5,177 bases of DNA, from positions 1 to 5,177 of the forward strand of contig CABUTY010000124.1 of assembly GCA_902494595.1 (NCBI GenBank), in the 5' to 3' direction. The notes under the pieces were generated by a model. That model saw only the letters and a program-made list of their open reading frames with translations, ran no database searches and was not told the DNA's origin. Shown here piece after piece: positions 1,117-4,728 of the stretch. Position numbers and translations under genes: made by a program. Numbering within the stretch: position 1 is the stretch's first letter; the number at the start of each line of letters is the position of its first letter. The stretch comes from an uncultured Porphyromonadaceae bacterium (GTDB taxonomy: Bacteria > Bacteroidota > Bacteroidia > Bacteroidales > Muribaculaceae).

Positions 1117-1262
1117 GAGCGCGTTCCTTAAAATTTCGGGGCCGTAGGGGCGGCTCTTTTCGAGCAGTTTTTTCGAGTCGAGGAGGGAGCGATGCAAGCA
1201 TCGTGACCGACGAGATCTCGGAAAAGATGCCGAAAAGAGACGGGGCGCAGGTAATTTTAATG
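1117..1262 (+). repeat. Structured repeat element, copy A (hairpin 1154-1239)
   Basis: The element begins on the smpB stop codon. Its first 34 bases (to 1150) recur in reverse at 1552-1585 with one mismatch. Inside is an almost continuous hairpin read on the + strand: CTCTTTTCG (1154-1162) pairs with CGAAAAGAG (1231-1239); A1163 is bulged; GCA pairs with TGC (1228-1230); G1167 faces A1227; TTTTTTCGAG (1168-1177) pairs with CTCGGAAAAG (1217-1226) using G.U pairs; U1216 is bulged. Then CGAGGAGGGAG (1179-1189) faces UGACCGACGAG (1204-1214), which gives three tandem G.A modules separated by Watson-Crick pairs. The tip is CGATGC / GCATCG around AA. An outer TTAAAAT (1128-1134) can pair with ATTTTAA (1254-1260). 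There is no credible gene in it. The repeat and hairpin are directly visible; the function is unknown. Confidence 0.75.
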
Positions 1263-1410
1263 TCGTCGGTGTTACTCCTATGATTGAAAAATACCTCGTC
1301 CGATACCCTTTCGGTCTCAGCATCAGAGAATAAGGATTTATTGATATTCTTTAATATAAGGATACGCGATTTGTGAAAATATTATAATTAACAGATATGT
1401 TATACAAGCT
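1263..1410. other. AT-rich spacer between two inverted repeat copies, no gene seen
   Basis: This stretch carries no convincing reading frame on either strand. It turns AT-rich from about 1330 to 1410. A TTTG at 1370-1373 is followed about 22 bases later by TATGTTAT, which is too poor a -7 box to call a promoter. I see no tRNA-like or terminator-like structure. Confidence 0.5.
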
Positions 1411-1585
1411 CATTTTAACAATCTCGGGGGCCTTGACGCGGAGGAAGTTACCTTCGCCCTCGCAGACTTGGCCGCTTTTAGCCGCTTGCTGTCAGTCACA
1501 TACCTCGGTATGCTCCTTCAGCAACCGACTAAAATCGCCTCAAGTCTGCGACCCCTACGACCCCGAAATTTTAAGGAACGCGCTC
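1411..1585 (-). repeat. Structured repeat element, copy B (hairpin 1460-1551), inverted relative to copy A
   Basis: Read on the - strand, it starts (1585 downward) with the same outer sequence as copy A, 33 of 34 bases identical. The hairpin follows: TCGCAGACTTG pairs perfectly with CAAGTCTGCGA (plus-strand 1541-1551 and 1460-1470). Then come a bulged A, four positions GGCG/CGGC with one G.G, an A.G mismatch next to TTTT/AAAA, AGTCGG/CGGCT pairing, and TTGCTG/CAGCAA. GAAGGAG faces TGACTGA (plus-strand 1513-1519 and 1492-1498), and a tip CATACC / GGTATG closes around GA. Apart from the outer end, the sequence is quite unlike copy A but the architecture is the same. A further stem joins ATCTCGGGG (1421-1429) to the outer CCCCGAAAT (1561-1569). 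The element ends 18 bases before the U32 gene, so it may carry or replace that gene's promoter; I see no clear promoter box in it. Confidence 0.75.
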
Positions 1586-1603
1586 TAAGGGCGCTATACT
1601 GTC

Positions 1604-3364
1604 ATGAGAGATATAGAGCTGCTTGCTCCGGCCGCCGACAAACATGTGGCGATGGCGGCAATCATGCATGGCGCCGATGCCGTATACATAGGGGCTACGA
1701 GCCATGGCGCCCGCCATAAGGCCGCCAATTCCCTTGACGACCTCAGGGAGACCGTAGGCTTCGCCCATCAGTTTCGCGCCAAGGTCTATGTCACTGTCAA
1801 TACTCTGGTATTCGAACACGAACTGCCACAGGTAGAGCGGCTTGTATGGGATCTTTACCGCATAGGTGTGGATGCCATAATTGTGCAGGATATGTCGCTT
1901 CTTCGTCTCAACCTGCCTCCCATCCCGCTGCATGCCAGCACTCAGTGCGACAACCGCACGCCGGATAAAGCCCGTTTCCTGCAGGATGTGGGATTCTCAC
2001 AGATTGTGCTTGCAAGAGAGCTTACCGTCGATGAGATTGGCGAGATATGCCGCACGGTGACCATCCCTGTGGAATGTTTCGTGCATGGGGCCTTGTGCGT
2101 AAGCTATTCCGGACGCTGTGCCGCCAGCCAGAAAGCACTCGGCCGCAGCGCCAACCGTGGCAAATGCGCCCAGATGTGCCGCATGCCATACACATTGCGC
2201 GACGCCGACGGCAACATTGTAGCCAAAGACAGGTATCTTCTCTCGCTGCGCGACTTCAACGCCGCCGACAATATGGAGGATCTTCTCGATGCCGGCGTGG
2301 CCTCCTTCAAAATCGAGGGACGCCTCAAGGATGCAGCCTATGTCAAGAATGTGACTGCTTTCTACCGCCGTCGCCTCGATGGTATATTCGCCGCCAATCC
2401 CGGCAAATACCGCCGGTCGTCGTGCGGAGAATCCTCTTTCAGCTTCATCCCCTCGCCCGAGAAAAGCTTCAACCGGGGTTTCACATCCTATTTCCTCGGC
2501 CGCCGTCGTCCCGGTTCGATGGCATCGCTGCTCACTCCCAAGTCGATGGGCGAGACCATTGAAAATGTCAATGACCTGCATAATGGCGACGGCATAAGCT
2601 TTTTCAATGCCGACGGCGAATATCAGGGCGTCAATGTTAACGGCATAAAGGATGGCCGCATCATAGGCTCACGCCCTTTCAGACTGCCGCCCGGCGCCGT
2701 AATACACCGCACCTCCGACGTCGTCTGGCAGAAACTGATGGCCGGCGATACGGCAAGACGTACTGTCCGGGTCGACATGGCCTTGGATGAAAATGGTCTT
2801 ACACTTACCGATGAAAGGGGGCTTGAAGTGAGGGTGGCGATGGATGTCACCAAGGATGTGGCTCGCCAGCCGATGTCGCCTGAAAAGGTGCTGGGCAAAC
2901 TGGGTGACACCATTTACAGGTTAGGCGATTTTAAAAACAATCTCGAACCCACCACTTTCATACCGGCCTCAGAGCTTGCCGCCCTGAGGCGCAGGGGCGT
3001 CGCTCTCCTCGACGCTGCCAACAAGGCTTCCTATCCTTTTGAATATCGCCGGCAGGAAGACCCAGCGGCGACATATCCTGAAGCCACGCTGACGGCCCGC
3101 GACAATGTGGCCAATTCATTGGCCCGGGCCTTCTACCGCAGTCACGGCGTAAAGGATATGGAGCCGGCGGTAGAACTCCAGTCCGACTATCGCGGAGCTG
3201 TGATGACCACGCGCTACTGCATACTCCGCGAACTGAAGATGTGCAGAAAAGAGCACCCCGGTAAAACACCGTCACAGCCCCTCACCATCACCACCGGCCC
3301 CCACTCTTTCCGCCTCGCCTTCGACTGCGCACGCTGCGAAATGTCGCTGTTTCCAAAGCAATAA
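1604..3364 (+). CDS. U32-family protein with C-terminal DUF3656-like region, RlhA (YdcP)-like
   Basis: A 586-residue U32 (COG0826) protein. The N-terminus MRDIELLAPAADKHVAMAAI with HGADAVYIGA is the standard U32 beginning and fixes the ATG at 1604. Residues 157-175 (E157-C-F..HGALC165..SGRC172) nearly match the U32 signature, with Ala for the final aliphatic residue. C188 and C192 follow (GKCAQMCR), then FKIEGRLK at 235-242. Residues about 380-480 resemble the DUF3656 (collagenase-type) insert. The C-terminus has two more cysteine pairs: C539 and C547 (MTTRYC..LKMC), C575 and C578 (FDCARC). U32 proteins were named peptidases, but the E. coli members RlhA (YdcP) and TrhP (YegQ) are needed for hydroxylation of a 23S rRNA cytidine and of tRNA wobble uridines, with conserved cysteines thought to hold an Fe-S cluster. 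The DUF3656 region points to the RlhA branch; that substrate is inferred, not shown. It stands alone, between repeats on both sides. Confidence 0.88.
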   Translation: MRDIELLAPAADKHVAMAAIMHGADAVYIGATSHGARHKAANSLDDLRETVGFAHQFRAKVYVTVNTLVFEHELPQVERLVWDLYRIGVDAIIVQDMSLLRLNLPPIPLHASTQCDNRTPDKARFLQDVGFSQIVLARELTVDEIGEICRTVTIPVECFVHGALCVSYSGRCAASQKALGRSANRGKCAQMCRMPYTLRDADGNIVAKDRYLLSLRDFNAADNMEDLLDAGVASFKIEGRLKDAAYVKNVTAFYRRRLDGIFAANPGKYRRSSCGESSFSFIPSPEKSFNRGFTSYFLGRRRPGSMASLLTPKSMGETIENVNDLHNGDGISFFNADGEYQGVNVNGIKDGRIIGSRPFRLPPGAVIHRTSDVVWQKLMAGDTARRTVRVDMALDENGLTLTDERGLEVRVAMDVTKDVARQPMSPEKVLGKLGDTIYRLGDFKNNLEPTTFIPASELAALRRRGVALLDAANKASYPFEYRRQEDPAATYPEATLTARDNVANSLARAFYRSHGVKDMEPAVELQSDYRGAVMTTRYCILRELKMCRKEHPGKTPSQPLTITTGPHSFRLAFDCARCEMSLFPKQ

Positions 3365-3368
3365 TGGC

Positions 3369-3626
3369 TGAAGCTGTTTAAACTAATTTTTATGGCAAGA
3401 TTTATTAAGATTGGCTCCCGTTCGTTTGCCGAGCTGAAGGTTTTGGGATGGATTTCTTCTGTCGAATCCCGCAGGGCTCGGGGAGCGAAGGCGATTCAAC
3501 AGGCAGCGACCTCTCGGTCGGTGCCGATGATAGAGGAGAATACGCCCAAAAGATTGATAAAGGTTGCCATATAGTTAACAACTTTTTATATTGTTTATGG
3601 TACGTAAATTAGTTTAAACAACTTCA
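3369..3626. repeat. Nested inverted-repeat element between the U32 gene and the exported-protein gene
   Basis: Outer arms 3369-3389 and 3606-3626 are inverted copies with 20 of 21 matches (core TGTTTAAACTAATTT). Further in, 3392-3412 and 3550-3570 are inverted with 16 of 21 matches, so both strands begin ATGGCAA..TTTAT. Then TTTTGGG (3441-3447) pairs with CCCAAAA (3545-3551), and CTGTCGAATC (3459-3468) with GATTCAACAG (3493-3502), 9 of 10. A separate hairpin is GGCA-G-CGACC, loop TCTC, GGTCG-G-TGCC (3502-3525). No transposase is present and no target duplication is obvious. A 60-codon frame (3392-3574) crosses it, but it resembles no protein I know and its first codons are part of an inverted arm, so I do not call a gene. 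A MITE-like element or a structured transcript are both possible. Confidence 0.65.
3564..3593 (+). promoter_or_regulatory. Possible promoter for the exported-protein gene at 3649
   Basis: TTG (3564-3566), 20 bases, then TATATTG (3587-3593) resembles the Bacteroidetes -33/-7 arrangement, but the -7 box lacks one T of TAnnTTTG. It would give a leader of about 50 bases ending in the A-rich run AAAAACAATAAACAAC before ATG, a common setting for translation starts in this phylum. Its -33 part lies in the nested repeat. Weak evidence. Confidence 0.3.
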
Positions 3627-3648
3627 CTGTATAAAAACAATAAACAAC

Positions 3649-4122
3649 ATGTACTATCAATCAACAACTTCAACACCGGCAGCTGACAATAGCAGTGTCC
3701 GTGCCGTATCGTCACTGAGTAAATATCTGAGAATTCTGGCAGTGCTCGTTGCCTTCACGGCGACATTCTCCCAGCAGGCAATCGCTCGGCTATATCCCGT
3801 GAACATCCAGGGGACATGGCAGATGATCGTACTCGATGACCAAGGCAACATCACTTGTCAGTACTGCCTCAAACTGGGAGCCGAACGTTTCGCCGCCCAA
3901 GGCGGAAAGGTTAATCTCGATGGAACCACAGCCGACTCTTTCATGCTCGGAACTTGGCGTCTCGATGACAAAATGCTTTATCTTTCCTTCCCCAAAGATG
4001 GTCAGAATTTCGAATACAAGGTTAAGAAGGCCGACAAAACCCAGCTCAAACTCGAACAGTATGGCCGCGTGATGATATGGAACCGTGTCCCCGACGACAC
4101 CATAGATTCTTATATGCCCTGA
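3649..4122 (+). CDS. Small exported protein of unknown function
   Basis: A 157-residue protein I do not recognise by name. The first 28 residues are polar and Ser/Thr-rich, then a hydrophobic stretch (about 29-40, LRILAVLVAFTATF) leads to QAIA at 43-46, a fair signal peptidase I site, predicting a periplasmic protein of about 111 residues. The n-region is unusually long, but no later in-frame ATG precedes the hydrophobic segment. The mature part has two short similar modules, GTWQMIVLDDQGN (about 55-67) and GTWRLDDKMLYLSF (101-114), separated by a CxxC (C70, C73), followed by alternating polar/hydrophobic strands (FEYKVKKADKTQLKLEQ). This reads like a small lipocalin-like beta barrel, a fold common in exported Bacteroidales proteins, but that is inference from pattern. 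It is a single gene, convergent with the lipoprotein gene across a strong hairpin. Confidence 0.75.
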   Translation: MYYQSTTSTPAADNSSVRAVSSLSKYLRILAVLVAFTATFSQQAIARLYPVNIQGTWQMIVLDDQGNITCQYCLKLGAERFAAQGGKVNLDGTTADSFMLGTWRLDDKMLYLSFPKDGQNFEYKVKKADKTQLKLEQYGRVMIWNRVPDDTIDSYMP

Positions 4123-4141
4123 TTATTCCCATAATGCTTAC

Positions 4142-4216
4142 GAGACTGTGCCAAAAGTGCACCCCAAAAGTTTTTGTCTAACTTTTGGGGTGCAGTTCAC
4201 TTTTTGAGACAGCCTC
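4142..4216. terminator. Strong hairpin between convergent genes, with IS-end-like outer arms
   Basis: GCACCCCAAAAGTT (4159-4172) pairs perfectly with AACTTTTGGGGTGC (4180-4193) over 14 bp with a 7-base loop. Outside it, GAGACTGTGCCAAAAGTG (4142-4159) and CACTTTTTGAGACAGCCTC (4198-4216) form a second, imperfect inverted pair. It lies 19 bases after the stop of the + gene and 30 bases from the end of the - gene, so it could end both transcripts; a T-run follows the outer arm on the + side (4201-4205). The outer arms resemble terminal repeats I associate with Bacteroides insertion sequences, so a MITE or IS scar reused as a terminator is possible. Confidence 0.6.
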
Positions 4217-4246
4217 TTAATTTATAACTTCCGGCAACGCAAGCTA

Positions 4247-4570
4247 TTATAATATTGAAGTGTCAAAAGCCAGTTTGACAGATTTCACCTTAACATAGCT
4301 GTCATAGTCGTTGTTGGAATAGGGAACAGCCTCGAGTTCTGCCTTTGTACCTGCCGGCAGCATAAGCTTGCCGTCAACAACCTTGAAACCTTTGAAGTAT
4401 CCTATTCTTGAGCTTGTCACTTCAGAACCCTGTTCATCGCAGCCTATAAGCATCAGAGGGAGATACAGGTAATTCACAACGTGAGATCCACCTCCACCCG
4501 AGCAGGCCGTCAAGGCAAGAATGCCTATCAAGGCCATCATTATAAGTAAGTCATGAAAACTATTACGCAT
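4247..4570 (-). CDS. Small lipoprotein of unknown function
   Basis: From the ATG at 4570 the protein has 107 residues: MRNSFHDLLIMMALIGILALTAC is a clean lipoprotein signal with lipobox L20-T-A-C23, followed by a glycine-rich linker SGGGGS. After lipidation at C23 about 85 residues remain. The linker has no acidic cluster of the kind tied to surface export in Bacteroidetes, so the side of the membrane is uncertain. The mature part is hydrophobic at first (NYLYLPLMLIG), has one more cysteine (C44), then GYFKGFKVVDGKLMLPAG and a lysine/valine-rich strand near the end. No family recognised. The frame stays open upstream to ATGs at 4594 and 4630, but those would add residues encoded by the structured leader and would spoil the signal peptide, so 4570 is preferred. 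Its early codons pair with the leader (see the leader entry), which suggests control of translation. Confidence 0.75.
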   Translation of the reverse strand: MRNSFHDLLIMMALIGILALTACSGGGGSHVVNYLYLPLMLIGCDEQGSEVTSSRIGYFKGFKVVDGKLMLPAGTKAELEAVPYSNNDYDSYVKVKSVKLAFDTSIL

Positions 4571-4728
4571 TATTATGGATTTGAAGCTTTGCATTATCGG
4601 CGGTATTATTTCGCCGCTTTTCCCTCTCATCTTCAGTCGTGTAGCTCGCTACACTCCTTCATCTTCGAGGAAAAATCGACTGAAATAATGCTCTCCGATA
4701 ATACAAAATAATTTCCACGACTTACTTA
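4543..4728 (-). promoter_or_regulatory. Structured 5' leader of the lipoprotein mRNA, copy C of the hairpin family
   Basis: Read on the - strand. Outer stem: plus-strand 4707-4728 with 4543-4564, 22 positions, 19 Watson-Crick and 3 G.U. Second stem: 4695-4706 with 4589-4600, 12 positions including one G.U. Third: 4682-4691 with 4603-4612, 9 of 10. Then a bulged A (opposite T4681 on +), GUCG/CGGC, an A.G mismatch and UUUUUCCUC / GAGGGAAAA. GAAGAUGAAGGAG faces CGACUGAAGAUGA as four tandem G.A modules separated by A-U, U-A and A-U/G-C pairs. The tip is TGTAGC / GCTACA around GA (4640-4653). The predicted start codon (4568-4570) lies in the unpaired segment 4565-4588, and codons 3-8 or so form the outer stem. 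All three outer-stem exceptions are G.U in the - transcript but A.C in a + transcript, which favours - strand RNA. Confidence 0.65.

Follow-up and report, generated by a model that had tools for sequence, protein, structure and literature searches.

A covarying tandem G-A hairpin inside short Bacteroidales transposons: a possible aid to mobilisation

The 5,177-nucleotide stretch analysed here (the window; contig CABUTY010000124.1 of assembly GCA_902494595.1, from an uncultured Porphyromonadaceae bacterium placed in Muribaculaceae) carries three hairpins, A, B and C, for which an earlier note had described one shared architecture. They are no free-standing RNA or repeat family but modules within transposable elements bounded by terminal inverted repeats (TIRs): A and B are the inverted ends of one element and C lies in a separate element with TIRs of its own, an arrangement that the note had overlooked. 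We propose, as a reading that is possible rather than probable, that such hairpins are a conserved internal part of short transposons with TIRs, most of them probably of the IS5 type, and we predict that the transposition machinery recognises the folded strand, which would raise mobilisation. Both window elements look like non-autonomous transposons (miniature inverted-repeat transposable elements, MITEs), and the translated open reading frames (ORFs) of 1117-1585 and 4543-4728 include no transposase frame. Their parts are given below, with bit scores from R2, a covariance model built from 42 copies of the hairpin.

1117..1585: element of 469 bp with two hairpins that resembles a transposon but has no gene (MITE), read from the sequence; script bounds 1116-1586; counterpart at locus L045
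1117..1141, plus strand: left TIR GAGCGCGTTCCTTAAAATTTCGGGG, 25 bp, identical to the reverse complement of 1561-1585
1561..1585, minus strand: right TIR, 25 bp, identical inverted repeat of the left TIR
1149..1243, plus strand: hairpin A, inward-facing, with three tandem G-A modules (fold; 69.1 bits)
1458..1554, minus strand: hairpin B, inward-facing, with two tandem G-A modules (fold; 62.4 bits)
4543..4728, minus strand: one-hairpin MITE, 186 bp, TIR beginning TAAGTAAGTCRTG, from inverted-repeat analysis
4601..4694, minus strand: core of hairpin C, with four tandem G-A modules; the whole stem spans about 4589-4706 (78.0 bits)

The shared architecture claimed for the three hairpins holds. Their predicted folds have z scores of -5.0 (A), -6.4 (B) and -8.1 (C), with none of 200 shuffles equally stable in each case, and the window contains three mismatch-free occurrences of GARGGAG-N5-CRAG-N5-YGACYGA, where 0.03 matches with up to three mismatches would be expected by chance. 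Reading the sequence also agrees with the module counts proposed for A and C. With filters off, the next-best place in the window after C, A and B scores 12.3 bits with R2, the three hairpins being among the model's own building sequences; one of 43 rows, L002, which has an insertion, was excluded from the model, and non-Bacteroidales rows were not included. The core of the 42-copy alignment is nearly gap-free and comprises a six-pair tip, the CRAG loop, G-A/A-G, two pairs and again G-A/A-G, followed by a fixed arm of 19 positions. Beyond this arm come a bulge, a six-pair stem made mainly of a U-run and an A-run, a mismatch, three pairs and a second bulge. The bulged A and the purine mismatch, which had been listed as shared features, are present in A, B and C and common in the family but not universal: the bulge base is A in 29 of the 42 copies and the mismatch is A-G or G-A in 19. 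A third G-A module is found in 17 copies and a fourth in 5.

The compensated divergence noticed between the three hairpins extends across this alignment, in which the covariation score reaches 0.565; shuffling gives 0.187, none of 500 shuffles scoring as high, and slid structures give 0.219 or less. Two-sided changes are seen at 37 of 39 pairs. The search motif itself fixes GARGGAG, CRAG and YGACYGA in the rows of R2, so that conservation at these letters is partly a selection effect. GA/GA is kept at the inner module in 99 and at the outer module in 100 of 107 distinct copies, Watson-Crick pairs replacing it in 1 and 3 copies, respectively, and of the 24 copies at loci reached by way of a transposase, 23 retain the inner module and 21 the outer; the model that placed these copies rewards those same letters. 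Because the shape with its G-A pairs is kept while the letters change, the fold is likely to be a working part that aids spread. In 41 of the 42 copies the given strand is more stable than its complement, with mean fold energies of -35.5 versus -23.2 kcal/mol under RNA parameters and -17.4 versus -12.7 under DNA parameters, and G-T exceeds A-C (79 versus 27) at 33 pairs. This strand specificity, together with the G-T excess, suggests that one strand counts, and therefore RNA or single-stranded DNA fits better than a symmetrical cruciform.

Inverted repeats, accepted by script at a fixed alignment score and with no shuffled control, enclose 107 of the 123 copies having enough flank; their spacing is mostly 175-215 bp, and about 305 bp in two two-hairpin cases. 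Elements with GG-type TIRs have 4-bp duplications in 18 of 23 cases (shuffled mean 3.3, maximum 12), and those with CCCAAATC-type TIRs have 5-bp duplications in 9 of 12 (shuffled mean 2.1, maximum 6). Single candidate duplications are TATA...TATA at L045 and TAA...TAA at the 469-bp window element, where TAA stands at 1114-1116 and 1586-1588, the left one doubling as the stop codon of smpB. Terminal repeats, together with target-site duplications in two TIR types, indicate ordinary DNA transposition. Of the suggestion that the hairpins reflect selection or spread as a folded molecule, the maintenance of the fold thus stands, inside the element, and spread in that form is unsupported. Prevotella ihumii has both the GG and the CCCAAATC types, one TIR pattern giving 70 forward and 70 reverse exact matches and the other 202 and 196 matches within one mismatch. 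In the CCCAAATC copies that were read the inner G-A module is changed to AC/AA, and L153 is a chimera that combines one type's TIRs with the other type's hairpin. The hairpin appears to be portable, since it is found with different TIRs and duplication lengths. The second element type in P. ihumii (L356-L374) has about 200 copies by TIR pattern and 5-bp duplications; no transposase was found for it.

A larger form of the element was retrieved through an IS5-type transposase and then through its relative at L274, that is, independently of the hairpin motif. Its plan is TIR, hairpin, transposase or remnant, hairpin and TIR, with the hairpins facing inward, and its length runs from 1182 down to 490 bp. 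L275 (1112 bp) holds a 257-residue transposase frame without the C-terminal part between its opposing hairpins and TIRs. Transposase remnants lie between both hairpins and TIRs at L292 (1182 bp), L309 (886), L311 (867) and L308 (754); further remnant elements with TIRs and both hairpins are L310 (649), L313 (570) and L320 (490), and L312, of the same plan, measures 509 bp and is ended by a contig edge. The 469-bp window element follows this plan minus the transposase, and 9 of 10 distinct loci with two model matches have an inward-facing pair within one element. The transposase lineage is taken to be of IS5 type because it combines the domains DUF4096 and DDE_Tnp_1 and its plasmid relatives include the names IS5 and ISRm4. 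In another genome (L322) an intact IS5-type element and a hairpin MITE, about 50 bp apart, share the same 17-bp TIR; a TIR in common with a transposase-bearing IS5-type element is seen there and at the hairpin-ended insertion sequence (IS) loci. A 19-row tree places five hairpin rows on one side of a weakly supported branch (69/63; 73% of bootstrap trees), and the L274 transposase is matched at E <= 1e-50 in 4 of 393 genomes of an order-wide sample.

The fold is also kept where no gene accompanies it. L045 is the window's two-hairpin element at another place, with identical TIRs and both hairpins, and L114 retains both hairpins but a single TIR, because the contig start cuts off its other end. 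Between the window and L045, hairpin A differs by five compensated pairs and one broken pair; in hairpin B three pairs changed on both sides, two changed on one side and four are broken. The constraint on the fold is imperfect, as hairpin B shows. Persistence of the fold in a lineage without a transposase to regulate favours a role for the element itself.

The hairpin has many homologues, as a covariance-model search of the kind proposed in the earlier note brought out, and elements of this sort occur in numerous copies in many gut Bacteroidales. A motif scan of a genome collection matched at least 120 stretches; together with the window these gave 112 matches in 105 sources with at least five of six tip pairs, a level reached by chance in about 7% of cases by our estimate. 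Among the matches listed, most hosts belong to Bacteroidales (Muribaculaceae, Prevotellaceae, Barnesiella, Paludibacteraceae); the remainder include Verrucomicrobia and a gill symbiont. R2 matches 91 of 149 genomes in the family of genome G007 (inferred to be Muribaculaceae; at most 28 candidates scored per genome) and, in a phylum-wide sample with 21 candidates scored per genome, 1 of 198, namely the centre genome itself. All 13 chosen hosts have matches: at least 150 places in P. ihumii, 126 in G004 and 1 to 39 in the rest. Metagenome-assembled genome JAMPHR (L010, L017, L060), labelled Paenibacillus sp., bears elements of Bacteroidales type, and Muribaculaceae-like TIRs are matched by G005, which was built on it; the label is probably wrong. 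At L189/L194 (G007:C191) three hairpins lie within about 630 bp next to part of a transposase gene, apparently where elements are nested in one another. Five P. ihumii copies (L014, L070, L074, L108, L157) contain a nested insert, about 65 nt long, which is palindromic in its own right and resembles repetitive extragenic palindromic (REP) sequences.

How might such a module work? Transcription entering the element would let the RNA strand fold into the hairpin, and the transposition machinery would recognise this folded strand, with more mobilisation of whichever element carries it. The module would act in cis, read as a folded strand that is more likely RNA than single-stranded DNA, and its benefit would be mobility. 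The window elements would then descend from a hairpin-ended IS5-type IS and be moved in trans by IS5-type transposases. A bolder version, which we consider unlikely, makes the hairpin a "structural passport": the tandem G-A hairpin of the nascent element RNA would tether several kinds of DDE transposase, and gene-less elements gaining it by recombination would become super-spreaders.

Several observations weigh against the mobility proposal. The G-T excess over A-C is equally compatible with single-stranded DNA. Duplications are not significant for the GAG type (5 of 11 at 3 bp; shuffled 3.6) or the GTA type (2 of 46 at 2 bp; shuffled 1.8), the duplication counts including two mis-anchored rows, one of each of these types. 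No fully intact two-hairpin IS occurs among the loci examined, the L275 transposase being incomplete and L274 having an uninterrupted transposase with the upstream hairpin only, and no transposase-bearing element was seen with the window's TIR. Uninterrupted IS5-type elements without an internal hairpin, moreover, reach several copies (L236, L262, L263, L268, L269, L271, L272), and the hairpin is therefore not required for IS5-type transposition as such. Searches for a mobilising element gave little: among the matches listed, TIR pairs in P. ihumii yielded one composite only as a candidate autonomous copy; a TIR search of seven genomes and 20 regions found no transposase flanked by both ends; a PF01609 search of 15 genomes, with 30 loci checked, found one IS with a MITE-like TIR and without an internal hairpin; and viral contigs gave one distant relative and no R2 match.

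The nearest rival to a mobility module is an RNA guard, in which incoming transcripts fold the hairpin and are bound or cut, for instance by RNase III, so that the transposase is not expressed or the element or its neighbours stay undisturbed. Hairpins do lie at both ends, on the strand that transcripts from outside would contain, and the accessible text on Correia MITEs reports cutting of their transcripts by RNase III (PMC10969869, PMC2229807). The fold is nevertheless retained in MITEs, which have no transposase to silence, and orientation to host genes is unbiased (33 sense, 30 antisense, 13 convergent and 23 divergent among 108 copies), and we hold a guard to be somewhat unlikely. Absence of any function seems quite unlikely: quasi-palindrome template switching could yield paired changes in a passive passenger, and some copies are indeed converted to longer perfect palindromes (L151, L156; one arm module each in L311) or have the hairpin shortened or lost (L151, L154, L155, L164, L179), but such correction would erase the G-A mismatches that in fact persist, Watson-Crick replacements being as rare as stated above.

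A Y1 (HUH) enzyme that cuts a single-stranded DNA hairpin, in the way that REP-associated tyrosine transposases (RAYTs) cut REP elements, would agree with a fold that is strand-specific under DNA parameters as well and with the Y1_Tnp genes common in several non-Bacteroidales hosts. We nonetheless regard it as improbable, given DDE-type TIRs and duplications and no chromosome-strand bias (in P. ihumii, 31 of the 69 listed copies, from at least 150, on the plus strand). No replication-strand bias appears in any 400-kb segment of that genome either, where GC skew is too noisy for placing the origin. RAYT/REP was rejected as a general mover because Y1_Tnp has no match in 9 of 22 hairpin hosts, including P. 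ihumii, and the motif is in 0 of 30 Y1 loci. Domestication of the hairpin by host genes, as a leader or terminator element, is already disfavoured and very improbable. Copies are mostly intergenic (3 of 108 within a simple ORF call) and C directly precedes a lipoprotein-like frame, but gene orientation is unbiased and no neighbour gene recurs; a shared neighbour was ruled out across 2851 frames from 105 sources, the largest common clusters comprising 4 sources and ordinary gene families.

The window genes, presumably, judged by protein sequence, are a menD-like end, smpB (664-1116), a U32 peptidase gene (1604-3364), the lipoprotein-like frame and a crcB-like gene. The initial codons of the lipoprotein-like frame fall within the C element (4530-4570), and its true start may be MMALIG, just outside. 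At 3369-3626 an inverted repeat TGAAGCTGTTTAAACTAATTT (20/21) encloses about 258 bp, with ends similar to hairpin-MITE TIRs; no R2 hairpin was found there, and the stretch is possibly another MITE. A palindrome at 4141-4220, GAGACTGTGCC...GACAGCCTC, is of a different repeat type and reaches only 12.3 bits with R2.

Cut-and-paste elements are thought to be recognised via the sequence of their ends. The present elements, by contrast, keep a folded strand of fixed geometry inside those ends despite sequence drift and across TIR types. A hairpin that aids mobility would add a new layer to how transposons are recognised, and one that guards against read-in transcription would be a well-defined RNA insulator. 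Under either role a large structured family is missing from Rfam: Rfam 15 gave no match over the gathering cut-off for the window and eight loci, in keeping with the earlier remark that no named RNA family was recognised. Within the open-access literature (ISfinder and most subscription papers being outside the scope), we found neither a paper naming this element nor any DDE-type element with such a module, covarying, rich in G-A pairs and strand-specific, at both of its ends.

Bacteroidales MITEs with IS5 TIRs, and stem-loop MITEs, are already known, as far as the accessible text of the sources goes (PMC4596501, PMC2229807, PMC10969869). In Porphyromonas gingivalis the IS5-family insertion sequences and IS5-type MITEs include ISPg, MITE464 and BrickBuilt (PMC4596501), and there, too, are short elements that carry IS5-like TIRs and have no transposase; the larger relatives described here encode an IS5-type transposase. 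The accessible text mentions stem-loops for BrickBuilt repeats only, whereas the present elements have, immediately internal to the TIRs, a hairpin that covaries, is rich in G-A pairs and folds strand-specifically. Correia/NEMIS, ERIC, RUP and other small MITEs, according to the portions available, resemble them in length (100-200 bp), TIRs and long-stem-loop transcripts; in those MITEs, however, the stem is said to form via end-to-end pairing, while here a separate inner hairpin of fixed geometry is common to different TIRs (PMC2229807, PMC10969869). REP/RAYT systems, as covered by the accessible parts of PMC3733652 and PMC6006769, also consist of dispersed hairpins, often in inverted pairs, of 20-40 nt as against about 94 nt or more. 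The elements described here differ from them further in their DDE-type TIRs and duplications, and in several rich hosts they occur without a Y1 enzyme.

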